Source: a virus. Taken from it: a stretch of DNA of 64,000 bases. This document shows positions 1 to 31,818 of this stretch, in pieces. How positions within the stretch are numbered: position 1 is the stretch's first letter; the number at the start of each line of letters is the position of its first letter. Below the pieces are notes generated by a model. It did no database searches. It was not told the origin of the DNA and saw nothing but the letters and a program-made list of their open reading frames with translations. The stretch covers positions 1 to 64,000 of the IMG/VR virus record IMGVR_UViG_3300009507_000012, one strand, 5' to 3'. The translations under genes were made by a program, and so were the position numbers.

Positions 1-462
1 TGCTAATACATCGTTACCTGCAGCTGCGTTAGCTGTTTTGATGTATAATGGAGCTTCAGCGTTGTCTAATCTACCACCTTCGTATACGAAGTCTAAGTAA
101 GATAAAAGACCCATAGGACCAGCCATTGGTACAACTGGAACTAAATCTAAACCGATTGTTTGTGCTGCAACTTGCATCGCTAAAGGAAGTAAAGTTGGAG
201 ACTTGTCACCTGAACCATCTGCAGTACCTGCAGCTCCGATACCACCGAAATCAGATGGGAATGCTACTGCACCCATACCACCGATATTCATAGGACCTGG
301 ATTGTTTGAAAGTGACATGATGTTTGCGTCTTCATAAAGTTTGTGATTATGACAGTACTCAGACATCCATGCTAATTTTGAAGCTTCGTTGATACCAGTA
401 GCGCTCTCGATAATTGGAGACCATGTTGCTCTGATTTCAGCTTCATTTATTAAATTTGCCAT
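1..462 (-). CDS. gp23: Major capsid protein gp23, N-terminal part (runs off the window)
   Basis: The 154 visible codons start at an ATG at 462 and stay open to base 1. The stretch around residues 97-128, with QTIGLDLVPVVPM, GPMGLL and YLDFVYEGG, is the conserved N-terminal region of T4-family gp23, which forms the hexamers of the prohead shell. The first 30 residues hold three (I)xE sites followed by Ala or Ser (after Glu7, Glu19, Glu26); one may be where the prohead protease removes the propeptide (inference). A segment NIGGMGAVAFP follows at about residue 59 and recurs in another protein of this window (25764-26897). It is the last gene of the portal-core-protease-capsid order, 84 bases after the protease-scaffold gene. 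Confidence 0.93.
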   Translation of the reverse strand, partial: MANLINEAEIRATWSPIIESATGINEASKLAWMSEYCHNHKLYEDANIMSLSNNPGPMNIGGMGAVAFPSDFGGIGAAGTADGSGDKSPTLLPLAMQVAAQTIGLDLVPVVPMAGPMGLLSYLDFVYEGGRLDNAEAPLYIKTANAAAGNDVLA

Positions 463-546: not shown

Positions 547-1818
547 TTATTTTTTAAATCTTTTTGCCATTGCTTCTGCAACACCATCTAAGTTATAAGG
601 AAGTGTTTTAGTAGCAACCTCTTTCTTTTCAGTTACCATAGCAACTTTTTCCATTACTGGAGCAGTTTCTCTAAGGTCTCTTGTTTGCCAGAAGTTTCTT
701 ACTTGATATTCAGTCTCAACTTTGTGAGTTCTTGATTGTGCAAGTAATTGATTTTTCTTAGCTTCAGAAAGATTTTCCCATTTTGCTTTATATTCTGTTG
801 GCATTGCTGAAAGAACTAACGGTTGATTGTTATTTTCTTCAGTAACAGTTGTAGTGTTTTCAATAATTCTAACTATCTGAGATTCAGTTAAAAATCCTGC
901 ACCTTCTACTTCTGTTCTTACCACTGTTCTTGCATCTTCGTTTAATGCATTATATTTTTCAGCAGTAGATGAACCAACTAATTTAAAGAAATGTGGGTCA
1001 TTATTTTCTTTTGCCTTTGCAGATTCTAATAAAGATGTTAATTTACTAGATATTTCTGATTTATAAGATTCTAATGGATCATCAGCACCATCAGCACCTG
1101 AATTTTCAGGAGCTTTATCATCTGCTTCTTCTTTCTTACTAGGTACTGTGACGTCTTTAGTGTCTTTTTTAATATCTTCACCATCAACTCCTGCATCGCC
1201 GGCTTTATCTGCAACTGTGCCTTCTCCTGAATTATCACCAACGTTTTCAAGTTCGTTATCTTTATCAGCTGCATCAAATTCTTTAGCAGTAACATCATCA
1301 GCTTCAACTACTAGGTTTTCATTGATTGACTCTGCAATATAATTAGCATATTCGCTAACGTTTTGTACGTTATCTTTTAAATAGTTAACATACTCTACTA
1401 ATTTTTCATTAGTTTCTGTACCATCATTATAAGATTCAGCAATATAATTACTATAGTCTTTTAATTTAGTTACTGATTCAGCAATATGTTCAGTATAAGA
1501 AATTCCTTGATCTGCCTTTTCAGCAACATGCTCAGTATATTGAATTGATTGATCAGTTTTTTCTGCTAAATATTCTGAATACTGAATATTTTGATCAGTT
1601 TTTTCTGCAACATATTTAACATACTCTGTTAAATTGTTTATTGATTCAACAATATGATCATTGTGAGCAGTTACGGTTTTAATGTCTTCATTTGTAGTAG
1701 CAGATCCTTCAGTTGAAGTTTCTGATAATTCTGTAAGAGTAGACTTTAATCCTTTTATTTGCTCAGCCAAATACTTAGTGTAATTGTTGAAGTCATCTGT
1801 TTTTACAAATTCTTCCAT
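547..1818 (-). CDS. Possible nested scaffold product from an internal in-frame start
   Basis: Codon 206 of the protease-scaffold frame is an ATG (1816-1818) preceded by an A-rich stretch containing AAAGAG. It falls at the boundary between the protease domain and the repeat-rich domain. Starting here would give a 423-residue scaffold without protease, as in the lambda C/Nu3 arrangement where a scaffold is made from an internal start inside a protease gene. Only the position of the ATG is seen; its use is inference. Confidence 0.4.
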   Translation of the reverse strand: MEEFVKTDDFNNYTKYLAEQIKGLKSTLTELSETSTEGSATTNEDIKTVTAHNDHIVESINNLTEYVKYVAEKTDQNIQYSEYLAEKTDQSIQYTEHVAEKADQGISYTEHIAESVTKLKDYSNYIAESYNDGTETNEKLVEYVNYLKDNVQNVSEYANYIAESINENLVVEADDVTAKEFDAADKDNELENVGDNSGEGTVADKAGDAGVDGEDIKKDTKDVTVPSKKEEADDKAPENSGADGADDPLESYKSEISSKLTSLLESAKAKENNDPHFFKLVGSSTAEKYNALNEDARTVVRTEVEGAGFLTESQIVRIIENTTTVTEENNNQPLVLSAMPTEYKAKWENLSEAKKNQLLAQSRTHKVETEYQVRNFWQTRDLRETAPVMEKVAMVTEKKEVATKTLPYNLDGVAEAMAKRFKK

Positions 1819-2433
1819 TGTTTGCTCTTTTTTATTTTCGTTTGTTGTTTTATTATTTATCTCTTTTTTAAATACTTCATATATAAATAAGCTTTCATCG
1901 TTAGCAAAACCATAAGATTCATTAACTCTATTTAATTGTGCATTCTCAAATCCTGGATCTGCAACTAAATCATAAGTAAATAATTGTTTGATTTTAACTT
2001 TACCGCCTTCTGAAACTTCTCCAGCAGCTCTAGAACTAATATGCAATGGTACACCAGCATCAACTAATGCTTTAGCTTGTTTACCAGCATCAGTATCTAA
2101 TAATCTGATTTTACCCATTACTTTCTTGTTTTCTTGATCATACCTTAACTCTTCGACAACGTGTGATACGTTTTTAAGAGAAATGTCAAATTGTTGAGGA
2201 TGGTCTAATTCACCAAGTAATTTAGAACCTCCGATTTTGTCTTGTAACGATTTAATTTGTGGAAGATATTCATCTTCAGTATAGATTCTGTTATTTTTAT
2301 TCTTAACATCAATCTCACCAAAAACGCCTTCTAAAACATAGTCTTTTGTTTCTCCTGATTGTTCTAAAACACTAGAAGATTTTTCAACTATTAATAAATT
2401 ATAATCGCTAGGCTTATTTATAAGTCTATCCAT
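547..2433 (-). CDS. gp21: Prohead protease gp21 fused to a gp22-like scaffold (628 aa)
   Basis: Residues 1-175 match the T4 gp21 prohead protease: an NKNNRIY motif near 46-51, GELDHP with His78, and HISSRA with Ser133/Ser134 as the likely catalytic His and Ser. T4 gp21 is only about 212 residues. Here the frame continues into an acidic, coiled-coil-rich domain of over 400 residues like the scaffold gp22, which T4 encodes separately. Residues 270-374 are repeats of about 14 residues containing (Y/H)xAE(K/S). An in-frame ATG at codon 206 could start the scaffold alone. Position between core proteins and gp23 fits protease plus scaffold. The protease role is well supported; the fusion is read directly; scaffold function is inferred from position and composition. 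Confidence 0.88.
   Translation of the reverse strand: MDRLINKPSDYNLLIVEKSSSVLEQSGETKDYVLEGVFGEIDVKNKNNRIYTEDEYLPQIKSLQDKIGGSKLLGELDHPQQFDISLKNVSHVVEELRYDQENKKVMGKIRLLDTDAGKQAKALVDAGVPLHISSRAAGEVSEGGKVKIKQLFTYDLVADPGFENAQLNRVNESYGFANDESLFIYEVFKKEINNKTTNENKKEQTMEEFVKTDDFNNYTKYLAEQIKGLKSTLTELSETSTEGSATTNEDIKTVTAHNDHIVESINNLTEYVKYVAEKTDQNIQYSEYLAEKTDQSIQYTEHVAEKADQGISYTEHIAESVTKLKDYSNYIAESYNDGTETNEKLVEYVNYLKDNVQNVSEYANYIAESINENLVVEADDVTAKEFDAADKDNELENVGDNSGEGTVADKAGDAGVDGEDIKKDTKDVTVPSKKEEADDKAPENSGADGADDPLESYKSEISSKLTSLLESAKAKENNDPHFFKLVGSSTAEKYNALNEDARTVVRTEVEGAGFLTESQIVRIIENTTTVTEENNNQPLVLSAMPTEYKAKWENLSEAKKNQLLAQSRTHKVETEYQVRNFWQTRDLRETAPVMEKVAMVTEKKEVATKTLPYNLDGVAEAMAKRFKK
1312..1626 (-). 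repeat. 14-residue coiled-coil repeats in the scaffold domain
   Basis: Residues 270-374 of the protease-scaffold protein hold seven related units, mostly 14 residues apart, of the form (E/Q/S/D)Y(S/T/V)(E/K/N)(Y/H)(L/V/I)AE(K/S). Examples are QYSEYLAEKTDQSI and QYTEHVAEKADQGI. One interval is 21 residues, so the heptad phase is kept, as expected for an extended coiled coil. Most units contain a hydrophobic-Ala-Glu triplet resembling the gp21 cleavage consensus. Confidence 0.8.
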
Positions 2434-3454: not shown

Positions 3455-5059
3455 TTACATCATGTCTCCCATTGGATCTTCAGCTGGTGGTGCTTCCGCA
3501 TCTTTTTTATCTGCTTTAGCTTTAGCAGCTGCATTTGCAGCAATATCATCTGGGCTTAATTGTAAATACCTATCAACTAAAAACTCCATATCGAAGTAGT
3601 ATTCTTCTTCCATAGTTTCACCATCGGTTGTCATTAAACTATCTCTCATTGTAGAAACAAATTCAAGTCTTCTTTCCATGATTTCCATTTCTTTTAATGC
3701 CGCAAAGTCATTATCTCTATTATATCTTAATGCAACTTGAGTTTTAAATTGTGGATCTTCAGCAAGATCTTTATATGCAATACACATTTGTAAATAAAGC
3801 GGCTTCACTAATATTTCTTGGAAAGCTGCTCTTAGTCTCTTTACAAACTTGCTAAATTTAATTTCATCTCTGATCATTCCATCTGCAGCAAGATTAAAAT
3901 CTCCACCTCCGTCTTCATATAAGAATCTAGAATAAGGTATTTTAGAAACATGTTTAAGTTTATCTGAAAAATATTTAAGTGCTTCTGTATCTGAAAGGTC
4001 TGGACCTGACGCATCTAATGTTTCAATCTCAGGGCTGTCACCGTCTTTACTTGGTAACCAATATTCTTTATTAAATTGTAGCATGGGTTTACCATCGGTT
4101 GTCATAGAACCAGACTCCCAATCAAAATCAACTACTTCTTTATATGAATTCATTAATTGTGCAAGTGATTGTTTTGCTCTTGTTTTAGATTTACCACCGA
4201 CTGGTATAACAAATTTCATTCTATAAGAACTATTAGTCACTGCCCAAATAATTCTTGTATGTTCCATAATTCTTAATAAGTTAAAAGATCTAATGAGTCT
4301 TTCAACATAACTAACTCTACCTGCTGTTGTTATAGAAGAATAAGAAAGGTATATAATTTGAGAATCATATAAGGTTCTTTCTTTTACCGGATCGTCTTTA
4401 AATTGTACCCATACTTTTTTACCATCTTCTTTATTATAACCCGGGACTAGTGTAATTGGATCAAGTTCTTTAAAACCAATAATTTCCTTTTGATCAGGTG
4501 AGTAAATAATTTCAAATGCTAAATAACCATCAATTAACCATTTTCTAAAATAGTACCAAGCAGATTGATCTGAGTTAAATCCAAATGCATGGTATATTTG
4601 TCTAAAATATCTGTTTAAATCCTTTTGAATTCCATCTGCTACTTCAACTCCAAGAATTTCAGGAGAAGCAAAGAAATTTTTATTATCATATACAATAGTT
4701 TCATCACATAGTATATCTAAAATATCTTCAATCTCATCGTTTACTGAAAAACCTCTAAGTTCTTCTCTTTTTACTTCATACTGTTGATCGAAAAAAGGAA
4801 CATTCTTTCGCATTGTAGTATCTGCCATTGACAATGCTGCAAACGCAGCATACATGTCATCATTATCTAATCCCATTGGATTCATTTGGCCATAACCAAA
4901 CTTGTCTTCTAATGGACCAACCGCCTGAGACTGTCTAAGTATCATATCATCATATCTCATACCGAATGATGAAAGTAACTTTAATGTATTGTTTAACCTA
5001 AAAGGTCTCTTATTACTTAGTGGACCATTTCTTGGATCCTTATCTGCAAAACCTGCCAT
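3455..5059 (-). CDS. gp20: Portal vertex protein gp20
   Basis: 534 residues, close to T4 gp20 (about 524). Forms the dodecameric portal at the special vertex, which nucleates head assembly and threads DNA. Recognised from the conserved core: NDEIEDILDILCDE near residue 106, a long middle domain with YLAFEIIYSP, and the highly conserved PYSRFLYEDGGGDFNLAADG near 375 followed by IRDEIKFSKFVKRLR. The Pro- and acid-rich tail ends in GDMM. It is followed by core, protease and capsid genes in the order used by T4. A perfect TATAAATA lies 18 bases before the ATG. Confidence 0.95.
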   Translation of the reverse strand: MAGFADKDPRNGPLSNKRPFRLNNTLKLLSSFGMRYDDMILRQSQAVGPLEDKFGYGQMNPMGLDNDDMYAAFAALSMADTTMRKNVPFFDQQYEVKREELRGFSVNDEIEDILDILCDETIVYDNKNFFASPEILGVEVADGIQKDLNRYFRQIYHAFGFNSDQSAWYYFRKWLIDGYLAFEIIYSPDQKEIIGFKELDPITLVPGYNKEDGKKVWVQFKDDPVKERTLYDSQIIYLSYSSITTAGRVSYVERLIRSFNLLRIMEHTRIIWAVTNSSYRMKFVIPVGGKSKTRAKQSLAQLMNSYKEVVDFDWESGSMTTDGKPMLQFNKEYWLPSKDGDSPEIETLDASGPDLSDTEALKYFSDKLKHVSKIPYSRFLYEDGGGDFNLAADGMIRDEIKFSKFVKRLRAAFQEILVKPLYLQMCIAYKDLAEDPQFKTQVALRYNRDNDFAALKEMEIMERRLEFVSTMRDSLMTTDGETMEEEYYFDMEFLVDRYLQLSPDDIAANAAAKAKADKKDAEAPPAEDPMGDMM

Positions 5060-6660: not shown

Positions 6661-8073
6661 TTATACTGTTTCGCCGTCAGCTAATTCAACATCTCTTTTG
6701 TTTACCTTTAAAGGCTTTTCATTTGCGAATACTGTTATTGATTCATCTTGACCAGATGTTGTATAAGCTTCTGCATCGATTTGGATTTCTGTACCTTCTG
6801 CAAAATCTCCTGTTTTATATTTAAGAGTTCCTGGTACATAACCATCTTGTCTAGTTACTACTTCTTCTTCAATCTCAGCTTCATCCATAGAAGCTTCTAA
6901 TTCTTCTTGATCTTCTTTGGCTTTTTCAACTTCTCCCATTTCAGCTTCAGCGTCTTCAATCTCTTTAGCATCATCTTCAGTTACTTCAGCTTCAGCAACT
7001 TCTTTAGCTCCGTCTTCTCCTTCGTCGCTTGGTGCAGAATCATCTGCTTCTTCAGATTTAACTTCTCTTTTTTCATCGCTATCAACTTCTTTATGATCAG
7101 CTTTAATATCTTCAGCTTCAACGCCAGCTTCATCTCCAGCTTCTTCGTTAGTAGCTTCAGTTTCAGTTTCTTCAGTTGTAGCTTCAGTTTCAGTTTCTTC
7201 AGTTGTAGCTTCAGTTTCAGTTTCTTCAGTTGTAGCTTCAGTTTCACAAACACATCCGTCTGTTCCACATTTTCCACAACCTTCATCTACCTTTTCAGTA
7301 CCGTTTTTAATAGCTTTAACTTCTTCTTCTAATCTTTTAATCTCATTGTTAATTAATGTATCAGCTTCTTTAACTTCTTGAATTGATTTGTCAGCTTCAG
7401 CAATAACACCTCTTTGATCTTTTAAGAACGCTATCATTTGCTCTAATAAATTAATCTTATTTAATTTTTCAGCAGCTGTTTTTCTTGCACCTTCTAAAAG
7501 TTCTTGAGTCATATCAGTTATTTCATAACCTGTTTGCTCTTTAACATAATCAAATGCAGCGTTTGCATCTAATTTACCAAACTTATAAATTTTATTAGCT
7601 TCATTCATTCTATAAACGTAGAAGTCTTCGTTTAATTTCATAACATAACATTTAACCTGTCCTTCTTCGATTTTTTGAGCAAAATCAAGAGATACAAAGT
7701 TATTGATGTTTTTTGCAGCATATTCAAAAAGTTGAATTTTTGCCTTGTTTGTATAATTTACAATACCTGCCGCTAATAAATGATTTGTTAAACTTTCAGC
7801 TAAAACTTCGCTATTGTTAACGAAAAAATTGTTTGATTCTCTTACGAATCTAATTCTATTAATTCCATTAAACCATGTTAAACCTTCATTAGTTAATGTA
7901 AAATTGTTTAATGCTAAAACAAGACTTCTAAACTCACCAGGAGCTGTAGTAATTTCTGCTTCAGTAATTGTATTTTCACCAACTAAAAATGCTTTACCAT
8001 CTAATGCAATATAACTATCTCCTGATTCAGTAACGAATACAGGTGATATAATTTGTTTTGTAACTTGTGCCAT
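6661..8073 (-). CDS. Virion protein candidate with acidic repeat and a four-cysteine cluster
   Basis: 470 residues. The N-terminal 180 residues look globular (NEGLTWFNGINRIRF near 62-77). They are followed by a helical stretch (about 190-255), then CGKCGTDGCVC (near 266-276), then a long Glu/Thr/Ala-rich region with three copies of the 9-residue unit EATTEETET. The C-terminal 60 residues again look folded (GYVPGTLKYKTGDFAEG). No family recognised. A GATATATAAT element 30 bases before the ATG and a terminator behind suggest a single late gene. The four closely spaced Cys could bind zinc or a metal (inference). Confidence 0.7.
   Translation of the reverse strand: MAQVTKQIISPVFVTESGDSYIALDGKAFLVGENTITEAEITTAPGEFRSLVLALNNFTLTNEGLTWFNGINRIRFVRESNNFFVNNSEVLAESLTNHLLAAGIVNYTNKAKIQLFEYAAKNINNFVSLDFAQKIEEGQVKCYVMKLNEDFYVYRMNEANKIYKFGKLDANAAFDYVKEQTGYEITDMTQELLEGARKTAAEKLNKINLLEQMIAFLKDQRGVIAEADKSIQEVKEADTLINNEIKRLEEEVKAIKNGTEKVDEGCGKCGTDGCVCETEATTEETETEATTEETETEATTEETETEATNEEAGDEAGVEAEDIKADHKEVDSDEKREVKSEEADDSAPSDEGEDGAKEVAEAEVTEDDAKEIEDAEAEMGEVEKAKEDQEELEASMDEAEIEEEVVTRQDGYVPGTLKYKTGDFAEGTEIQIDAEAYTTSGQDESITVFANEKPLKVNKRDVELADGETV
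7153..7246 (-). repeat. 27-bp tandem repeat (three copies plus part of a fourth)
   Basis: Three perfect 27-base units at 7153-7179, 7180-7206 and 7207-7233, then 13 bases of a fourth. Each encodes a nine-residue Thr/Glu-rich unit of the protein at 6661-8073. Perfect identity suggests recent expansion by slippage or unequal recombination. Confidence 0.9.
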
Positions 8074-8103
8074 TTTTAATATTTTTATTTATTTTATATA
8101 TTA

Positions 8104-8113
8104 ATTATATATC
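8104..8113 (-). promoter_or_regulatory. GATATATAAT element (candidate late promoter)
   Basis: Exact copy on the minus strand, 30 bases before the ATG of the 8073 gene; it also supplies the last codons (Asp-Ile-stop) of the preceding gene. Confidence 0.5.
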
Positions 8114-8878
8114 TAAACCCTCATCTAAAGATTCGTTAAGTTGTTTTTCATCTGAATAAGTGTGAGTTATCTTAAACATTCTATTTCCAGCATGTCTCTC
8201 TGTGTCAAAATCTATTGCTGGCATAAATGAATTTACCTCAACACTGAATGTTATTTTATAATTACCTTTATCGTCAAAACTATATTCAATTGGGCTTTCT
8301 TTACCATAATCGTCTGGCATTGCATAATAGGCTGCCATTCTATATAGTCCTTCTTCTAAATGCCCGACTTCTACATTATATTGATTAGATTTATATAATT
8401 TCTTTACTAATTGTTCAGTACATTTAAAGATGTCTAAGAGACTACTTAATAGTATTTCAATATCAATTGAAAATGTCATAGGAATTAGTTCAAACTCTGC
8501 TCTATACCCCTCTAAAACACCTTGATCATTCATCTTACTATACTCTCCAACGTTTCTCTTATTTACAAGCTTTGATGGATCAACTGTCATTGATGTAAGA
8601 TTAACAACTCCTCTTGGAATTGCATCATAATTTCCATCTGCTCCTGTTGGAGTTGGACTACATTCAAAGCCATTAGCTGTTGAAAAAAGAAAATTATCTT
8701 TTAAAAAATCAGCATCTCCAGTAATTGAATAATAAAAGGGGACATCTATTTCTGATCGAGTATCATTATCAAGTTGTCTATAAAAACTAACCTTTTTATT
8801 TAAGTCAGCTAAAAGACCTACTATAAGGTGTCTGATAACGCTATCGTCTCTATTGAATTTTAAATTATATGTTGCCAT
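8105..8878 (-). CDS. Conserved virion protein, function unknown
   Basis: 257 residues, no membrane segment. Features include NLKFNRDDSVIRHLIVGLLAD at the start, AIPRGVVNLTSMTVDP near 86-101, RAEFELIPMTFSIDIEI near 124-140, and LEEGLYRMAAYYAMP. The pattern is that of a small structural protein of marine T4-like phages, but I cannot name its T4 counterpart. The C-terminus LNESLDEGLDI resembles the Asn-Glu-Ser / Asp-Glu-Gly strings seen at candidate protease sites elsewhere in this window. A GATATATAAT element lies only two bases before the ATG. Confidence 0.65.
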   Translation of the reverse strand: MATYNLKFNRDDSVIRHLIVGLLADLNKKVSFYRQLDNDTRSEIDVPFYYSITGDADFLKDNFLFSTANGFECSPTPTGADGNYDAIPRGVVNLTSMTVDPSKLVNKRNVGEYSKMNDQGVLEGYRAEFELIPMTFSIDIEILLSSLLDIFKCTEQLVKKLYKSNQYNVEVGHLEEGLYRMAAYYAMPDDYGKESPIEYSFDDKGNYKITFSVEVNSFMPAIDFDTERHAGNRMFKITHTYSDEKQLNESLDEGLDI

Positions 8879-8880
8879 TT

Positions 8881-8890
8881 ATTATATATC
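8881..8890 (-). promoter_or_regulatory. GATATATAAT element abutting a start codon
   Basis: Exact copy on the minus strand that overlaps the gp46 stop codon and ends two bases before the ATG of the 8878 gene. This spacing is too short for a normal leader if the element is a -10 box, so its role here is uncertain. Confidence 0.35.
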
Positions 8891-10559
8891 ATTCTATTTT
8901 TTCAATAGTAAACTTTGAAAATCCATTCTCTCTATGAATCTGTATTTTCTGATCAAATATCTCATGAGGTAATTCTGTATGATTAATCACAAATGTATTT
9001 AGTCCGTTTTCTTTAATTACTTCATTAAGAATTTTAAGTACGTTATAGACTCCATCTTGATCTACAGAACTTAATAACTCATCTAAGAACATAAGATTAA
9101 GCTGTGGAAACCTTAGTTTTAGTATTTTAATAATAGCAATAATAACTATAAAGTCAGCCTTCTTTCTCTCACCTGTTGAAAGTGTTAGAGGATTTATATC
9201 TTCCCCTAAATGATTAATAATACAATCGAACTTTTCATCAAATCTAATATGAAATGGAAGGTGCATTGTTTGAGCCATCATTGCGATATTAGCATTTAAG
9301 CCTGGTAATATCGTTTGTACTGCAAGGTTTTTTACACCATCATCTCCTAAGACTTCTTCTAAGATTGTCATAAACGCGTCTTGCTGTGCTATCTCTTCTC
9401 TCTTACCTGATTTACTTTCTTCTGACTTTTCAAACTCTTCAATAATTTGTTTTAAATGTTGGAATTGAGTTGAGTCTTGTGTTGATTCCTTTATTTTAAT
9501 TAAAGCTTCTTTAATATCTTTAATAGAGTACCTTAAGTTATTAATTCTAGTTTCAACTTGTTTTTTCTTACTTCTTAATTCACTTACTTTTCCTTCAGCT
9601 ATTGTAATTTCTTCTTTTAATTTACCTGAATCTTTAGAGTTATTTTCAATCTGTGTTTTAAATTCATCTCCTTTTTTCTGGTGCCAATCAGTATCTAACT
9701 TTGTTTCACATGAACCACAAAATCCGGATTCGTATAATTCAATTTTTTTCTGTAGGTATTGATTCTCTCGTTCAAGGTCTCGCTGCTGAATACCCATGCT
9801 ACTTGCTTCATCTCTTACTCCTTCAATTTTACCATCGATATGGCTTCTCGCCTCGTTTAATTTCTTAACATTATCTCCATGTTCTAATAGTTCATCTTTT
9901 AAGGCTTCAACCTTTGCTTTATCTTTCTTATGAGACTCTTCAACTAAGTTATTTAGTTTAAGTCTTACTGAAGAAATTGATTCCATAATCTGATTAAGTT
10001 CAGAATCATAAGAATCTATTTCCATTTTAATTTGCTTACGTTCTTCTTTAACGTTCCTGAACATGTCGTTTAAAACTGAAAAACCAAACATCTTATCAAT
10101 GATTTGTTTTTTATCACTTGAATTCATAGTCAGAAAAGACTTAAAATCATTAATACTTAAAATAATAATATTCTTAAACACATGATATGGTATTCCAAAA
10201 ATCTCATCTTCTAAATATTCTTGTACAGATTTTTTACCTGCTTTATCAAACTCTACTCCATTGATTAATACTTTAAACTTATTTGGCATAAGACCTCTTT
10301 CTATCTCAACTGACATGTCTTTACATTGTAAGTTTATTTTAACCCATAATTCTTTGTTGATTCTATTTGGTAAATCAGCGAGTTTTACACCTTCAACCTT
10401 TCCATATAATGCATATATAATACTATTAGCTATTGTGGTTTTGCCATGTCCGTTTTTACCTAATGTTAAATATAACTGTGCTTGGTCTTCAAACTCAATT
10501 GTTTGAACTTGATTACCATAACTTGCAAAATTCTTAAATTCTATACTATTAATTTTCAT
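8889..10559 (-). CDS. gp46: Recombination endonuclease subunit gp46 (Rad50/SbcC type)
   Basis: 556 residues (T4 about 560). ABC-type ATPase of the gp46-gp47 complex that resects double-strand ends for recombination-dependent replication. Walker A GKNGHGKTT at 34-42; a long coiled coil broken by a zinc hook FCGSCETK with Cys281 and Cys284; ABC signature LSTGERKKADF and Walker B LNLMFLDE near the C-terminus. The start overlaps the end of gp47 by 11 bases, so the two subunits are probably translated together. Confidence 0.96.
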   Translation of the reverse strand: MKINSIEFKNFASYGNQVQTIEFEDQAQLYLTLGKNGHGKTTIANSIIYALYGKVEGVKLADLPNRINKELWVKINLQCKDMSVEIERGLMPNKFKVLINGVEFDKAGKKSVQEYLEDEIFGIPYHVFKNIIILSINDFKSFLTMNSSDKKQIIDKMFGFSVLNDMFRNVKEERKQIKMEIDSYDSELNQIMESISSVRLKLNNLVEESHKKDKAKVEALKDELLEHGDNVKKLNEARSHIDGKIEGVRDEASSMGIQQRDLERENQYLQKKIELYESGFCGSCETKLDTDWHQKKGDEFKTQIENNSKDSGKLKEEITIAEGKVSELRSKKKQVETRINNLRYSIKDIKEALIKIKESTQDSTQFQHLKQIIEEFEKSEESKSGKREEIAQQDAFMTILEEVLGDDGVKNLAVQTILPGLNANIAMMAQTMHLPFHIRFDEKFDCIINHLGEDINPLTLSTGERKKADFIVIIAIIKILKLRFPQLNLMFLDELLSSVDQDGVYNVLKILNEVIKENGLNTFVINHTELPHEIFDQKIQIHRENGFSKFTIEKIE

Positions 10560-24412: not shown

Positions 24413-25306
24413 TTAAACTTCAGCAACCTTTAAGTCTCTTTCTCCATAAGATGCCATCATCCATTGCTTTGATCTTTCATCCCATAAATAAACGTATTCT
24501 GCACCTCCATCATCTTCTACATCTGATAAATAATTTGCAATTGTTGCAACATTACCAGTTGATTGAGAATCTCTATCACCTTTATAAAAGTTAATTTTCT
24601 TAGGATTTACTTCTAATTGTGAACCACTTCCTTGTGAAAGTACATAATCTACATTCTTTCCGCCTTTATAACCTTTTCTTAATACCGGTAGTACATATTC
24701 TGGATAACCATCATAATGCATATAAACTGATGTGATATTTCCTTTTTTATCAATTTTTCCAAATTGATGTCGAGTACCTTCGTTTATTTCTTGAGACTCA
24801 TTAACTCCTACAAATTTAGCAAGAGCAGATTTAAGATCGTCGTAAGTGTATTTTCCAGAAAGAGCATCTGCTAATACAGTACCTTCCTTTTTACCTCCAT
24901 TAACATATAGATCTGTGTTATCGAAACCTGGCCAATCTCCACCTCCAAATTCATTATCTGGGTCGAGTCCTAAATCTACACCTAATGTAAATGATAAAGA
25001 ATGTTTTCCGTGAAATTGATCGTTATAGCCAAGTTTTCCTTCTCTTTGATAGCGTCCTATGTTTATTTTTGGTTTTGCTTCATCTATAGATGATGTATCA
25101 TATGACTCTAGATAATCTTCTCCACCTTGTTTGAAGTCATCCATTGCAGCTTCTAATTCCTTTTTAGAAAAACCTGCTTTTTTGCCAGCTTTCATATATT
25201 CATTTTCATCTTTAAATGAATCTATATTTGCTGTAAACCAATCTTTTATAGATTTTTCGTTAAGTGATTCATTAATAAAGTCGTTAAAATTCTTAATATT
25301 GTTCAT
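24413..25306 (-). CDS. Multi-domain internal protein candidate with several protease-type sites
   Basis: 297 residues. The start MNNIKNFNDFINE is followed by further Glu sites before Ser, Ala or Gly: INE13/S, IDE76/A, VNE170/S and INE176/G. These cut the protein into three blocks: 18-76 (helical), 77-170 (glycine-rich, DLGLDPDNEFGGGDWPGFDN) and 177-297. The last block, TRHQFGKIDKKGNITSVYMH followed by YDGYPEYVLPVL, matches a small conserved phage/bacterial protein pattern of unknown role (SxYxHxDGYPE). A GATATATAAT element lies 25 bases before the ATG. Packaging and processing are inference. Confidence 0.6.
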   Translation of the reverse strand: MNNIKNFNDFINESLNEKSIKDWFTANIDSFKDENEYMKAGKKAGFSKKELEAAMDDFKQGGEDYLESYDTSSIDEAKPKINIGRYQREGKLGYNDQFHGKHSLSFTLGVDLGLDPDNEFGGGDWPGFDNTDLYVNGGKKEGTVLADALSGKYTYDDLKSALAKFVGVNESQEINEGTRHQFGKIDKKGNITSVYMHYDGYPEYVLPVLRKGYKGGKNVDYVLSQGSGSQLEVNPKKINFYKGDRDSQSTGNVATIANYLSDVEDDGGAEYVYLWDERSKQWMMASYGERDLKVAEV

Positions 25307-25763: not shown

Positions 25764-26897
25764 TTATTCTATATCTTTTGCTATTTTATCAGCCCTTGTA
25801 CTATATGCCTTTAGCATATTTTTAGATTTAATTCCTAAGTCTTTAATAGCATCTTTTCCATACTGATCTTCTAAAGTTTGATGACTGCCTTTTAAAACTT
25901 TTACAAAATTAATGTAGTCTGAATTAGATTTTCTATATTTTGAAAATGCATCATCAACATCAGAAGGATCAGCAGCATCTATTGCTGCCATCACATTGTC
26001 TAGTTTTTCTAAATTATTAATAGATTGTTTAAATAAATCTTGAACATCAGCATTCTCTATTTTATTTTTAATTTGATCTATTTCCTTTTTAGTATCTCTA
26101 TCCTCTTTTTTTCTAAACAATCTTGAAAAAAAACCTTCACTTACTTTTGATAAATTAACAAAATCTTTAGCGTATTTATTCAACATTCTTTCGTTATAAT
26201 ATTCTTCTAATTTGTCTAAGAACGCCTCGTGAGAGTAGTCCATGCCAGGTGTTAAATATTCTCCCATATACTTGCCATGTGGAGAATTTAAAAAACCAAT
26301 CGCTTGTTTTTCTGACATGCCTTTATCTTGTAAAACTTCTATTGCAGCATCATATGCTTTTTGAATGTCTCTGTTATTTAGATCTGACATTTCTTCAAGA
26401 AAAGCAACATAGCCTAAACTTTTTCTAGCATCTTTAATTTTAGCTTCATCTACAGATTCGTTTTGAGCGTCAAACCATGCAATTTGCCAATCATCTATAT
26501 CAAATTTATAGAATGCTACTAAGTCTGCAATTTTATCATTAGCGGCTGGATCATCATCTCCTCTTTCAACTCCAGTAACGTCACGATAATTCTTTGTAAT
26601 AAATGTTGCAAGTTCCTGTTCACTTGGTCTTCTTCCTAATTCCTTTATGACTTTCTTAACGGTGTTATATTTACCAACTGCCTGATATTCTTCATTTAAA
26701 AATCCACTAAATGTAGTATGTACCATTTCTTCTTTTCTGTTTTTAAGATATTCTTCTCTTTCTTTCTTCTTTTTCTTTTGCTGTTTCTTAGCGTCTCCTT
26801 TACCAGCTGGCACATCACCGCTTCCTACTTCTCCACCTTGTGGAAAGGCAGGATTTCCCATGCCTCCAATATTTGCTGGTGTAACGTTTTCGTTCAT
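25764..26897 (-). CDS. Virion/internal protein candidate sharing a motif with the capsid protein
   Basis: 377 residues from the ATG at 26897, which overlaps the previous stop as TAATG; a TTG two codons earlier is less likely. Residues 7-19, PANIGGMGNPAFP, resemble PMNIGGMGAVAFP near the start of gp23. A Lys/Gln-rich linker follows (38-56), then MVHTTFSGFLNE (58-69), which looks like the capsid-targeting peptide placed internally. Further sites are QNE147/S and VDE151/A. The C-terminal half is helical (KKEIDQIKNKIENADVQDL). No family recognised; packaging is inference. Confidence 0.6.
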   Translation of the reverse strand: MNENVTPANIGGMGNPAFPQGGEVGSGDVPAGKGDAKKQQKKKKKEREEYLKNRKEEMVHTTFSGFLNEEYQAVGKYNTVKKVIKELGRRPSEQELATFITKNYRDVTGVERGDDDPAANDKIADLVAFYKFDIDDWQIAWFDAQNESVDEAKIKDARKSLGYVAFLEEMSDLNNRDIQKAYDAAIEVLQDKGMSEKQAIGFLNSPHGKYMGEYLTPGMDYSHEAFLDKLEEYYNERMLNKYAKDFVNLSKVSEGFFSRLFRKKEDRDTKKEIDQIKNKIENADVQDLFKQSINNLEKLDNVMAAIDAADPSDVDDAFSKYRKSNSDYINFVKVLKGSHQTLEDQYGKDAIKDLGIKSKNMLKAYSTRADKIAKDIE

Positions 26898-28933
26898 TAC
26901 CAAGCTAAGTTTCTTTTCTTAAGTTTAGCTAAACGATCTTTAATAGACTTTGCATATTCTTGAGATTCTTTTTCAGCATATCTTGCTTGCCATTCATATT
27001 CTCTAGAATCTTTACCATATTTAGCTTCAGCCATTTCAACTTCTGTCATATAGCCTGACCATCTTTCGTAGTCTTGAATTAAAGCATTTATAAAATTACT
27101 AATGTCGTTTAATTTATAAGCTCTACCATCTGCTCCTACACCTGCAATAAGTTCTCCATACTTATTTTTTTCTTGATTTTTTAAACCATCTTTCATAACG
27201 TCAGTTGCATCGTCAATTGCATCCATTACTAATTTATCTAATGGTAATTCACTTGCTCTTTTTTGTAGGATTTCTTTATATCTTGCAAGGTTTGCATCTT
27301 TAAATTCCTTATCAGATTTAAATGATACTGCACCTTCTTTAGCTTTTATTCTATCTTCGATTTTTCCTTTAGTATTTGGAAGAGCAGCTGTGTTAATTAC
27401 AAATGCAGCATCTGCAACGTCTATCACTCTTTTTACATTATAAATACCAGATGCGTCCCAGCCTCTATACTCTTTATTAATTCCAATATCATAAGATGAT
27501 TTTCTAGGATCTGTAGTTAAAGACATTGTCATTTTTCTCTTAATATAATCTCTTTTAACATATGCAACGTCTTTTCCCATACCTATTGCAAGGATTGTAT
27601 TTGCTGGGATTCTATTAGCAGAATTATGAACAGATTTTGAAGTATCAGCATAAGGGTTGTCTTTTTCTTGAGTTGTATAATAAACAACTAAACCTTCTGC
27701 TTTTTTACCTAATTTAGGATCAATATCTATTATTTGATCATCTGTTATTTTGTCTAATTCTATTTTACTAAAACCATAAATTGCTTTTAAAATTGCCTTA
27801 CTACCTCTTTTCATAGTAAGAAGTCCTCTAAGTTTAGAACTCTTTAATGCTTCATTAAGTTCTAAAGATTCGTTAACGAACTCACTAAAACTTTCGTATA
27901 TTTTTGATTCTTTCATTTCTTTTGCCTTTGTTTTTAAGTCTTTTAATTCATCTTTAACTTTACTGCCTTTAGCATATCTTTCAATACCCCAGTTAAATGC
28001 TGCGGTAAATAGCTTATCGAATGGGAGTTTTGAGAATTTTCTACCGAAGGTTGATTGATCTAACCAGTCTGAAAATGTATTAGCCATTTCTTTAGAAAGT
28101 TTAATACCTTCAACTGAATTAGTTTCTCCATTTACTACTGATTTTAATAGCTTTTTTGCACTTACTCTAGCTTCAGTAACTGCTGATTCTAAAATATCAG
28201 AAGAATCAAATTCATATTCTTCTAACTTATTTATTAGTTCTTTGTCATTCTTAGCCTCGAAGTCATAATCATGCTCTCCACTAACAACTACATAATATCC
28301 TCTACCTTTTTTATAAATCTCAGCATTAGAACCTTGTCCATCTGATGTAGATCCTATATGATCTTTTGAGTCATATGTTCCTTCAGTAACTGCAGATTCT
28401 AAAATATCAAATATGTGGAAACCTCCACCTGTCATTTTATCTGACCATTCAACGTGTTTAAGTTCTACTTCTGGATGAACCTTCTTAATAGAATCAATTA
28501 CCTTTTCTGGGCTAATTTTATAACCGTACTTAATTTGAATTCTTTTCTTGTTAAGTTTAGTAATTTTTGGCTTAGTATTACCTGTGTAGTCTATTGCTAA
28601 TTGATATGTAACGTCTGATTTATTTAAACCTTCATCTACTGATTCTGTAACAAGATTATTTAATATCTTTCTACCATAACCTGAAAGGCTTACGCCGTCT
28701 TCTTCTATTTTAAAAAATCTTTTATTACCTCTTGTCCATTTTGATGGAGCAGAAGAATGTTGTCCAACTATTTCGTTAAATTCATCAACTGTAATTTTAC
28801 CGTCTTTTAATGCTTCAATAATTGCATTTCTAACTTTAGCTGAACCTCCTACAGTTTTAGCAGGGTAATTTTCAGTATATCTTCTTTTAAGCGTTATATT
28901 TCTTTCGTTTAAAAAGTCTTCGAATGTTGCCAT
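26897..28933 (-). CDS. Polyprotein-like internal protein (678 aa)
   Basis: Starts MATFEDFLNE, a compact targeting-type peptide. Glu sites recur between blocks: LVTE97/S, VDE101/G, ILE179/S, VTE184/G, ILE249/S, VTE254/A, VNE355/S and LNE361/A. They divide it into blocks of about 87, 78, 65, 100 and 317 residues. Block 1 looks winged-helix-like (RGNKRFFKIEEDG). Block 3 has an AEIYKKGRGYYVVVSGEHDY beta pattern. Block 4 opens again with a targeting-like string, YESFSEFVNE. Block 5 (LRGLLTMKRGSKAILKAIYG onward) is unrecognised. The two ILESAVTE strings are copies at DNA level. GATATATAAT lies 26 bases before the ATG. Processing by the gp21-type protease is inference. Confidence 0.62.
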   Translation of the reverse strand: MATFEDFLNERNITLKRRYTENYPAKTVGGSAKVRNAIIEALKDGKITVDEFNEIVGQHSSAPSKWTRGNKRFFKIEEDGVSLSGYGRKILNNLVTESVDEGLNKSDVTYQLAIDYTGNTKPKITKLNKKRIQIKYGYKISPEKVIDSIKKVHPEVELKHVEWSDKMTGGGFHIFDILESAVTEGTYDSKDHIGSTSDGQGSNAEIYKKGRGYYVVVSGEHDYDFEAKNDKELINKLEEYEFDSSDILESAVTEARVSAKKLLKSVVNGETNSVEGIKLSKEMANTFSDWLDQSTFGRKFSKLPFDKLFTAAFNWGIERYAKGSKVKDELKDLKTKAKEMKESKIYESFSEFVNESLELNEALKSSKLRGLLTMKRGSKAILKAIYGFSKIELDKITDDQIIDIDPKLGKKAEGLVVYYTTQEKDNPYADTSKSVHNSANRIPANTILAIGMGKDVAYVKRDYIKRKMTMSLTTDPRKSSYDIGINKEYRGWDASGIYNVKRVIDVADAAFVINTAALPNTKGKIEDRIKAKEGAVSFKSDKEFKDANLARYKEILQKRASELPLDKLVMDAIDDATDVMKDGLKNQEKNKYGELIAGVGADGRAYKLNDISNFINALIQDYERWSGYMTEVEMAEAKYGKDSREYEWQARYAEKESQEYAKSIKDRLAKLKKRNLAW
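28171..28409 (-). repeat. 29-bp direct repeat encoding two protease-type linkers
   Basis: 28171-28199 and 28381-28409 differ at one base in 29 and lie 210 bases apart in the same frame. Each encodes DILESAVTE of the polyprotein-like gene. The match suggests that a linker, or linker plus domain, was copied. Confidence 0.85.
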
Positions 28934-29979: not shown

Positions 29980-31818
29980 TTATTTGCCTTTAAATTCTGA
30001 AAATGTTAAAACCTGTTCTTGTAGTTCAACGCTTTCTTCCATTGTTTGTTTTAATAACTTATACATTTTGTACATAGACTTAGGAGTCATGGACTTATAT
30101 GTCTTTTCGTCTCCATCTAATAAAGCGTTTCTTACCTTTGTTGCACTAATGTTATCGTCTGTCCTTGGAATTTCTTCTAATCTGAAGCTATCTTCAACTC
30201 CTAATTCTCCTCTATATTTTGGGTTATTAACTTGATAGCCATAGGTTTTCATTCTATCACTACCTGTTCCCCATAATACAGGTTCATACTTAGGTCTCAT
30301 AGCATTAAACATTTTGTCAATTGCTGCGGTATCTATAACGTACACTGTCTCAATAGGATATTCCTTCATCACTTGTTTTATCATATTAACCTGCATTGTT
30401 TCATCAAAAGGTCTTTTAAAACTATCTTCTTTCTTTTTCTTTTTAGCTTTAACTAAAAATATAACCGTTGGAAGTCCATTTTGTTTATGTAAATGTTCAA
30501 CTACTTTAACATGTCCTAAAGTAAATGGCTGAAACCTACCAACAAACATATTAACTTCTTTAGCTCCTCTTTCAGGATGGTTTACTTTTAAACCTTCGTT
30601 AATTGGATTTGTTTGTCCCTTAAGTGTATCGTTAATTTTAAAAGTTTTAAAATCCATTACACCATCTTCCTCTACTTTTTCGTAAATTCTTGCCTCAATC
30701 TTTTCTATAATACCATTTAAACTATTAAATGTATCTCCTGCTAAAACTCCATTTTCTTTCTGTCTCTTCTTTCTAAAAGTGCCTAACGTTATTTTTAATA
30801 ATTCTGCAACTTCTCTTGATTCATTAACAAGTCTAATAGTTTCTTGGTTTGTTATCATTTTTGGGTTTAAATCAAATGATTCATTGTTTGCAAATTCAGC
30901 GCTATCAAAATTCATACCAATAAAACTTGCGCCATTGTCTTTTATAAATGAATTAAAACCTGCTGTCATTAATTCTAAATATCTCTCATCAACTTCTTTA
31001 CTTTCAAGTTGTATTTCACTAAAATCAAACGCATTAAAATATTCAATAAGTTTTACTACAGTAATTTGATACGCATCTGAACTCTTTCTCTCTTCTTGTT
31101 CTTTAATTTCTTTTAATGGACTCTGTAGTTTAAAGTTTTTTAATGATTTGCCCTCTACGAAACTTACAACTAATCCATCAATGTCTTTATGAATATCATT
31201 GTTTAACATTGACTTATGAATTGACTCGTTAAATGTTGTAAATGCTCTATAAGAAAAACCAAAATCTTGTAATTCTATTTTTGCTTGCTCTCCTTGTAAA
31301 CTTAGTATATTAACTAACTTTTCTTTTTGGTGATCGGAAAGGATACCTTCATAAACAACCTCAGGAGATTGAACTTCTAAAAGATTAGCCCATTTTTCTA
31401 AAATCTTAGGATCTCTAATTACTTTTTTAATCTGGGTTCTGTCTTCATTTAATACTTGAATATGTGTTAATATAAGACTATTTTTTGGAAGTGTATCATA
31501 TTCAATGTCTACTGTCTTTTCACTAACCATATAATCAAATCCAAATTTCCAATCACTTGGCATCTGTTGAATAGTCTCATCTAATATTGCATCAAAATGG
31601 CCTATGCCTTTTTCATAATAAGCGACAATTGTTCTATCTATTTTATTAAGTGGCTGTTTATTTCCTGATTTATAAAATTCTAAAAGTCTATCTTCTCTTC
31701 TTACATGTAAGCTACTTGCTTGAATCTTTTCAGTAACTAAACATTTTTGTGTTAAAAGATTATTAAAATCCTCTTTTTCAACTGACTCATAATATGTTCT
31801 TAAATCTTGTAATGCCAT
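29980..31818 (-). CDS. Fused nucleic-acid ligase-like and NMN adenylyltransferase-like protein
   Basis: 612 residues with two recognisable enzymes. N-terminal covalent nucleotidyltransferase: TEKIQASS with Lys31 as candidate AMP-accepting lysine (as TEKIHG in T4 RNA ligase 2), DGLVVSF (214-220, motif IV) and LKNFKLQSP (226-234, motif V). C-terminal nucleotidylyltransferase: GRFQPFTLGH (427-436) and ISATKVR (557-563), the signature pair of NMN adenylyltransferases that make NAD from NMN and ATP. The link between them contains NPINE/GL at 408, a candidate gp21 site. It sits in the island of presumed packaged proteins but lacks the usual N-terminal peptide. Confidence 0.72.
   Translation of the reverse strand: MALQDLRTYYESVEKEDFNNLLTQKCLVTEKIQASSLHVRREDRLLEFYKSGNKQPLNKIDRTIVAYYEKGIGHFDAILDETIQQMPSDWKFGFDYMVSEKTVDIEYDTLPKNSLILTHIQVLNEDRTQIKKVIRDPKILEKWANLLEVQSPEVVYEGILSDHQKEKLVNILSLQGEQAKIELQDFGFSYRAFTTFNESIHKSMLNNDIHKDIDGLVVSFVEGKSLKNFKLQSPLKEIKEQEERKSSDAYQITVVKLIEYFNAFDFSEIQLESKEVDERYLELMTAGFNSFIKDNGASFIGMNFDSAEFANNESFDLNPKMITNQETIRLVNESREVAELLKITLGTFRKKRQKENGVLAGDTFNSLNGIIEKIEARIYEKVEEDGVMDFKTFKINDTLKGQTNPINEGLKVNHPERGAKEVNMFVGRFQPFTLGHVKVVEHLHKQNGLPTVIFLVKAKKKKKEDSFKRPFDETMQVNMIKQVMKEYPIETVYVIDTAAIDKMFNAMRPKYEPVLWGTGSDRMKTYGYQVNNPKYRGELGVEDSFRLEEIPRTDDNISATKVRNALLDGDEKTYKSMTPKSMYKMYKLLKQTMEESVELQEQVLTFSEFKGK

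Follow-up and report, generated by a model that had tools for sequence, protein, structure and literature searches.

Does the long open reading frame at positions 26897–28933 on the minus strand of a marine T4-like phage (IMG/VR record IMGVR_UViG_3300009507_000012) encode one protein or several? In the stretch of 64,000 nucleotides analysed here (the window) it is a single frame, and according to breakpoints among its relatives and to a structural model it has sites of the type cut by virus proteases at its domain borders, as in a viral polyprotein. The original prediction, that several small proteins are made as one chain with prohead-protease sites in between, is strongly supported by shuffling of modules at these sites, by single-gene forms of the modules, by an invariant Glu↓Ala joint, by predicted domains that do not span the sites and by the presence of an S77 protease gene. 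We therefore consider it probable that the chain is a polyprotein of internal head proteins, which would be targeted by one peptide, cut in the prohead and left there as separate head cargo. Its parts are as follows (↓ marks a predicted cut; L numbers denote the loci compared):

26897–28933, minus strand: predicted polyprotein of internal head proteins, a modular chain of 678 residues (open reading frame with ATG start, stop included; homologs found via the C-terminal block in 30 IMG/VR contigs).
28904–28933, minus strand: N-terminal capsid-targeting-like peptide MATFEDFLNE↓, residues 1–10 (T4 likeness; kept in homologs).
28643–28903, minus strand: constant N-terminal domain, residues 11–97 (conserved in 18 chains; compact in the model, with three helices, two strands and a helix).
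28631–28642, minus strand: linker 1 with E97 and E101, LVTE↓SVDE↓G (breakpoint in L006, L007 and L008; low pLDDT at 95–122).
28397–28630, minus strand: module C, GLNKSDVTYQ..., residues 102–179 (elsewhere in the chain in L006, L007 and L008; also in the unrelated chain L061).
28382–28396, minus strand: linker 2 with E179 and E184, DILE↓SAVTE↓G (low pLDDT at 179–186; breakpoint).
28381–28409, minus strand: copy 1 of a 29-bp repeat, at linker 2 (28 of 29 positions identical to copy 2).
28187–28381, minus strand: module E, GTYDSKDHIG..., residues 185–249 (in L006 directly behind the N-terminal domain and not behind module C; in other chains, L083–L085).
28172–28186, minus strand: linker 3 with E249 and E254, DILE↓SAVTE↓A (low pLDDT at 248–255; other modules come next in L001 and L002).
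28171–28199, minus strand: copy 2 of the 29-bp repeat, at linker 3 (repeat comparison).
27869–28171, minus strand: module B, ARVSAKKLLK..., residues 255–355 (in 54 IMG/VR contigs; first after the targeting peptide in L096–L098; alone with the peptide in L103).
27851–27916, minus strand: internal targeting-like peptide and linker 4, MKESKIYESFSEFVNE↓SLELNE↓A, residues 340–361 (invariant Glu↓Ala; FxxF-type motif in most homologs).
26900–27850, minus strand: constant C-terminal block, residues 362–678 (alignment and model; no fold or family match).

Paired sites and predicted domains

The eight glutamate sites claimed for this protein are all present (LVTE97↓S, SVDE101↓G, DILE179↓S, AVTE184↓G, DILE249↓S, AVTE254↓A, FVNE355↓S and ELNE361↓A). 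They group as four pairs with the pattern [ILV]xE-S-x(1-3)-[VL][NTD]E↓, and the compact blocks expected between them have lengths of about 87, 77–83, 65–70, 101 and 317 residues. The paired pattern, which was written after inspection of the sequence, is found four times in the window chain versus 0.07 in composition-matched shuffles, and three to seven times per chain in close relatives versus approximately 0.1 expected. Both DILESAVTE linkers had been described as 29-bp DNA copies and are indeed direct repeats (28171–28199 and 28381–28409), lying 210 bp, or 70 codons, apart, so that exactly one module is bracketed in frame.

In total the chain contains 14 [ILV]xE tripeptides, ten of which are situated at the borders or in the N-terminal peptide and none in the 317-residue C-terminal block (shuffling, P = 0.013); in the C-terminal block of related sequences their number is about half of the expectation (34 versus 66.8). 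No depletion was registered within module interiors (40 observed, 41.3 expected). Structure would, therefore, have to shield those sites from cutting, and site depletion inside modules is not counted here as support. A logo of 95 distinct junctions, where V, L or I at P3 and E at P1 were fixed by the search pattern, has mostly N, T or D at P2 and mostly A, G, K or S at P1', which fits the L/I-x-E preference of T4 gp21 (PMC9026906). Since several sites have V rather than I or L at P3, the specificity of the protease must be slightly wider than in T4. In T4 itself, a targeting peptide with Asp at position 10 is not processed.

Structure prediction had been suggested as a means to compare block borders with the sites. 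In the AlphaFold model of the full chain (mean pLDDT 62, alignment of 36 rows) compact units were found at approximately 29–94, 123–178 and 188–240, followed by a unit of helices that starts near 255 and, finally, by the C-terminal block. The sites all fall within segments with pLDDT below 50, that is, in linkers of low confidence between compact domains, and no domain spans a site; such segments make up a third of the chain, and the alignment, being shallow and built of fragments many of which are cut at borders, may exaggerate the linkers. Modelled alone, the C-terminal block reached a pLDDT of 76, and it gave no Pfam family over the cut-off, no PDB profile match and no fold match with E <0.001 among PDB and viral models. 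The chain itself found no match in Pfam, PHROGs and annotated phages, no Pfam family exceeded the cut-off in it or in ten related chains, and it has no homology to any known virion protein.

Two elements were overlooked in the original prediction. The first is site E10, which closes a T4-like capsid-targeting peptide (LNE). T4 IPII and IPIII begin with MKTYQEFIAE (translated from NC_000866), and all four functional positions agree with MATFEDFLNE (F or Y at 4, F7, L or I at 8, and E10); in the T4 peptide capsid targeting depends chiefly on residues 4 and 7, and processing on residues 8 and 10 (PMC9026906). The second is another targeting-like peptide ahead of the C-terminal block (residues 340–361), whose FxxF element may be read as if the block was formerly a gene of its own. 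The Glu↓Ala joint before this block is kept in 20 of 20 homologs as [ILV][NT]E↓A, and it is still invariant in distant homologs, where the adjoining block is only about 35–60% identical.

Module shuffling and single-gene forms

In IMG/VR the chain was found at 20 loci and the C-terminal block at 30, with chain lengths from 548 to 1170 residues. The first and the last blocks are constant, while the middle is composed of variable and reordered modules: the window has the order N-C-E-B-Cterm, L006 has N-E-I-C-B-(SYKLD)-Cterm and L007 carries about ten modules instead of three. Modules common to close relatives have approximately 85–96% DNA identity, and their edges lie inside the linkers. Seven closely related genes gave 55 distinct DNA breakpoints, which were taken from ungapped DNA matches; gapped local alignments bridged shuffled blocks. 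Within seven residues of [IL]xE, which is the plain T4 rule, named in the original prediction beforehand and untuned, there are 36 of the 55 breakpoints (10.5 expected); for [ILV]xE the number rises to 46 (13.8 expected), and 37 lie within ten residues of the linker pattern made after inspection (7.2 expected). The p values of these comparisons are nominal, because the genes are related and the breakpoints are not independent. Since the linkers themselves are shared, alignments continue through them; control motifs, however, remained at or below chance ([ILV]xD 9 versus 13.4, [ILV]xK 5 versus 17.0), so that linker sharing does not put breakpoints at arbitrary tripeptides. Relatives swap, add and reorder pieces exactly at the joints, which makes the chain look like a magazine of interchangeable payloads.

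Several related loci deserve mention. In L142 a related chain seemingly carries module G twice in tandem, possibly a recent cassette duplication. L102 (compare L103) has an apparent fusion intermediate, where a gene of one module, complete with Met and targeting peptide, continues the frame of a chain lying upstream of it. In L045 the N-terminal domain (6871–7068) and the remaining chain (7170–8978) are separate open reading frames, which is either a natural split or a sequence error. Across the collected loci 45 distinct open reading frames of at least 200 residues have three or more spaced joints, by a motif-based count only.

Modules are also found outside the long chain. A second chain is encoded in the window itself:

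24413–25306, minus strand: second chain gene with targeting peptide (residues 1–17), module J (18–76), module G (77–176) and module U (177–297) (module comparison).

In L001, L002, L006, L007 and L008 the same peptide as in this gene is followed by module U only (MNNIKNFNDFINESQEINE↓GTRHQF...); the long chain contains module G in L007 and L008, and in L008 also module J. Stand-alone genes composed of a targeting peptide and one module were found for H (L049), G (L144) and B (L103). Cyanophages and Streptococcus phages have module U as a protein by itself, and most local alignments with it start exactly at residue 177, just past the predicted cut at E176; the natural protein thus begins at the predicted cut. 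As to the function of the modules, Pfam and PHROGs gave nothing useful, the clearest match being phrog_1987 for module U, where function is not assigned.

What can be read from the genes is the modular architecture with its breakpoints at the sites, the peptide of targeting type, the gene of the protease and the single-gene forms. These observations have to be weighed first of all against the main rival explanation, that a multi-domain virion or injected protein stays intact, as certain polyvalent proteins from phages and plasmids do, and that its Glu-rich linkers are flexible spacers and recombination points. Unsplit multi-domain chains such as N4 virion RNA polymerase, ArdC and TraC1 are known (PMC5512222), and cutting of the present chain is a prediction from its sequence. 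However, plain flexible linkers would not hold [ILV][NT]E↓A in all homologs beside a diverging block, nor would they share the site preferences of prohead proteases, and the junctions are the same as the site at which products of stand-alone genes with this peptide would be processed. An intact protein appears, therefore, rather unlikely.

Protease, capsid and neighbouring genes

A polyprotein of internal head proteins would need a protease of the appropriate type, and three further genes of the window have to be considered:

547–2433, minus strand: S77 prohead protease of the T4 gp21 family, with a scaffold-like part fused on at the C-terminal side (PF03420 at 42.8 bits, cut-off 27; phrog_207 at 1.8e-38).
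1–462, minus strand: start of the major capsid protein, MANLINE↓AEIR...KLYE↓DAN (Gp23, PF07068, below the cut-off in the window copy, which is cut by the window edge, and above it in relatives).
25764–26903, minus strand: adjacent gene that contains MVHTTFSGFLNE↓E and NESVDE↓A internally, a possible third chain (sequence; no family match).

The gene at 547–2433 had been named as the protease, and it is a true relative of S77/gp21, with Peptidase_S77 over the curated cut-off and with matches to head maturation protease families. The S77 domain occupies residues 29–143 of the 628-residue frame, and the C-terminal part is repetitive, coiled and acidic. Apparently, this is a protease-scaffold fusion in place of separate gp21 and gp22. 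Relatives of the capsid protein keep LYE↓[DE]A at about the position of T4 gp23 maturation, an L-x-E site that is likely the capsid protein's own cut.

Small clustered genes between 23593 and 33555 (minus strand) open with T4-like targeting peptides (MKNIKLFEEFINE, MKNVKLFEEFINE, MNNIKNFNDFINE and MKKIKLFEEFLNE), so that this region resembles an internal-protein locus. The open reading frame at 29980–31818 (minus strand, 612 residues) has a cytidylyltransferase-like C-terminal domain (PF01467) and a long uncharacterised N-terminal part. The portal protein (3455–5059, minus strand) shares 58% identity with its counterpart in LR756500, an uncultured phage of 462 kb, which is far nearer than any isolate; the stretches examined near the portal of this closest huge phage, around the portal of PAU and in the ip region of T4 contained no similar array. 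Other portal relatives belong to phages of Sphingomonas, Prevotella and Tenacibaculum and to uncultured huge phages. Together with the GC content of 31% and with the starts at 28933, 25306, 3402 and 2433, which are mostly without Shine-Dalgarno sequences and have A-rich leaders, they hint at a Bacteroidota host. No T4-type late promoter was found upstream of the chain gene, but this search is uninformative, because most late genes here also lack it.

With a head protease in the genome, the chain might be cut like T4 gp22, gp67 and gp68, that is, as a part of the prohead core or scaffold, fragments of which mostly exit the head and are not delivered as cargo. T4 core proteins are indeed cut by gp21 to several fragments that leave the head (PMC9026906). 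The chain gene is located about 24 kb from the protease gene and has exchangeable modules. Its blocks are predicted to fold; besides, the phage already possesses the fusion of gp21/gp22 type as well as two core-like genes next to that of the portal, and an essential scaffold would not be expected to vary so much in its modules. We consider a core function improbable. Least of all can we expect that internal translation starts make the blocks separately, since, even if a Met stands ahead of this peptide in several chains (M340 in the window; also L002, L006, L007 and others), and some internal Met have an A-rich upstream context resembling true starts, there is no such Met before the C-terminal block in L013, L016, L017 and L040 and none at the borders of modules C and E in the window, nor is there a consistent Shine-Dalgarno sequence at internal sites, though it is absent at true starts also; with Met missing in several chains, this explanation was judged not general.

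Proposed pathway and known systems

In the polyprotein reading, which we prefer, a single N-terminal capsid-targeting peptide would bring the entire chain into the prohead core, and the S77 prohead protease would then cleave after [ILV]xE at the paired sites. Paired cleavage would excise linkers of 4–6 residues, so that five separate cargo proteins result: the N-terminal domain, one each from modules C, E and B, and the C-terminal protein of 317 residues. These would probably be ejected along with the DNA. That the chain is targeted, cut, packaged and ejected is assumed for this phage by analogy with T4. By the same kind of analogy, the modules probably serve to take over the host or to counter its defences, like the internal proteins of T4. 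The linkers may also act as short frame-preserving homologies, so that cassettes could be swapped, inserted or dropped by recombination with processing retained; recombination at the linkers would then be the cause of the shuffling.

A broader proposal, for which we would give only slightly better than even chances, is that cargo magazines unpacked by the protease supply the heads in a large group of marine T4-like phages, with up to ten unrelated proteins per targeting peptide. Each joint would serve two ends, as a double site for cutting and as a place of recombination that keeps the frame, and cassettes would be assorted among concatemers and single genes with the ease known from integrons. 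Natural polyproteins of delivered cargo that are processed by the head protease would give tailed phages a novel means of packaging numerous effectors, in a fixed ratio and by one targeting signal, and recombinable joints would account for the speed at which payloads turn over. With cuts placed after [ILV]xE wherever modules join, individual candidate effectors could be read from unannotated open reading frames of marine phages, and a natural design is suggested for loading several proteins into T4-type heads.

The original prediction also knew of no T4 precedent. This holds for natural polyproteins of internal head proteins, none of which was found in the open-access literature searched. In T4, however, several fragments arise from gp22, gp67 and gp68 when gp21 acts on them, and Alt is shortened by it from either end; besides, IPIII has been fused by engineering to beta-galactosidase, GFP and a nuclease, and such fusions are packaged, the one with the nuclease being processed in the head (PMC9026906). 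With T4 IPI, IPII, IPIII and Alt the chain shares the 10-residue N-terminal peptide ending with [IL]xE and its key positions, the high variability of the mature parts and an S77 protease in the genome, and single-module genes of the relatives have exactly the T4 form. However, in T4 there is one unit, one mature protein, per gene, while here three modules and two constant blocks in the window, and up to ten units in L007, stand behind one peptide with protease-type sites between them.

Polyvalent proteins, which were likened to polyproteins by the authors who described them (Iyer et al. 2017, PMC5512222), also combine many unrelated domains in one phage polypeptide and are mosaic between relatives, but they have recognisable enzyme domains and an embedded zincin peptidase, whereas the present chain has neither, and its sites fit a head protease encoded elsewhere in the genome. 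Head proteins of giant phages (phiKZ, SPN3US and 201phi2-1, with proteases of gp175/gp245 type) are likewise cleaved after a short x-x-E, and redundant sites clear fragments of their propeptides like the paired sites here (PMC9026906, PMC5694885). In those phages, however, propeptides are removed from single proteins, and no multi-cargo chain was found in the literature examined. In engineered IPIII fusions the targeting peptide draws the fused protein into the head, as proposed here, but these constructs are man-made and consist of two parts, while the chain is natural and multi-part. In its predicted cleavage it would work like a viral polyprotein.
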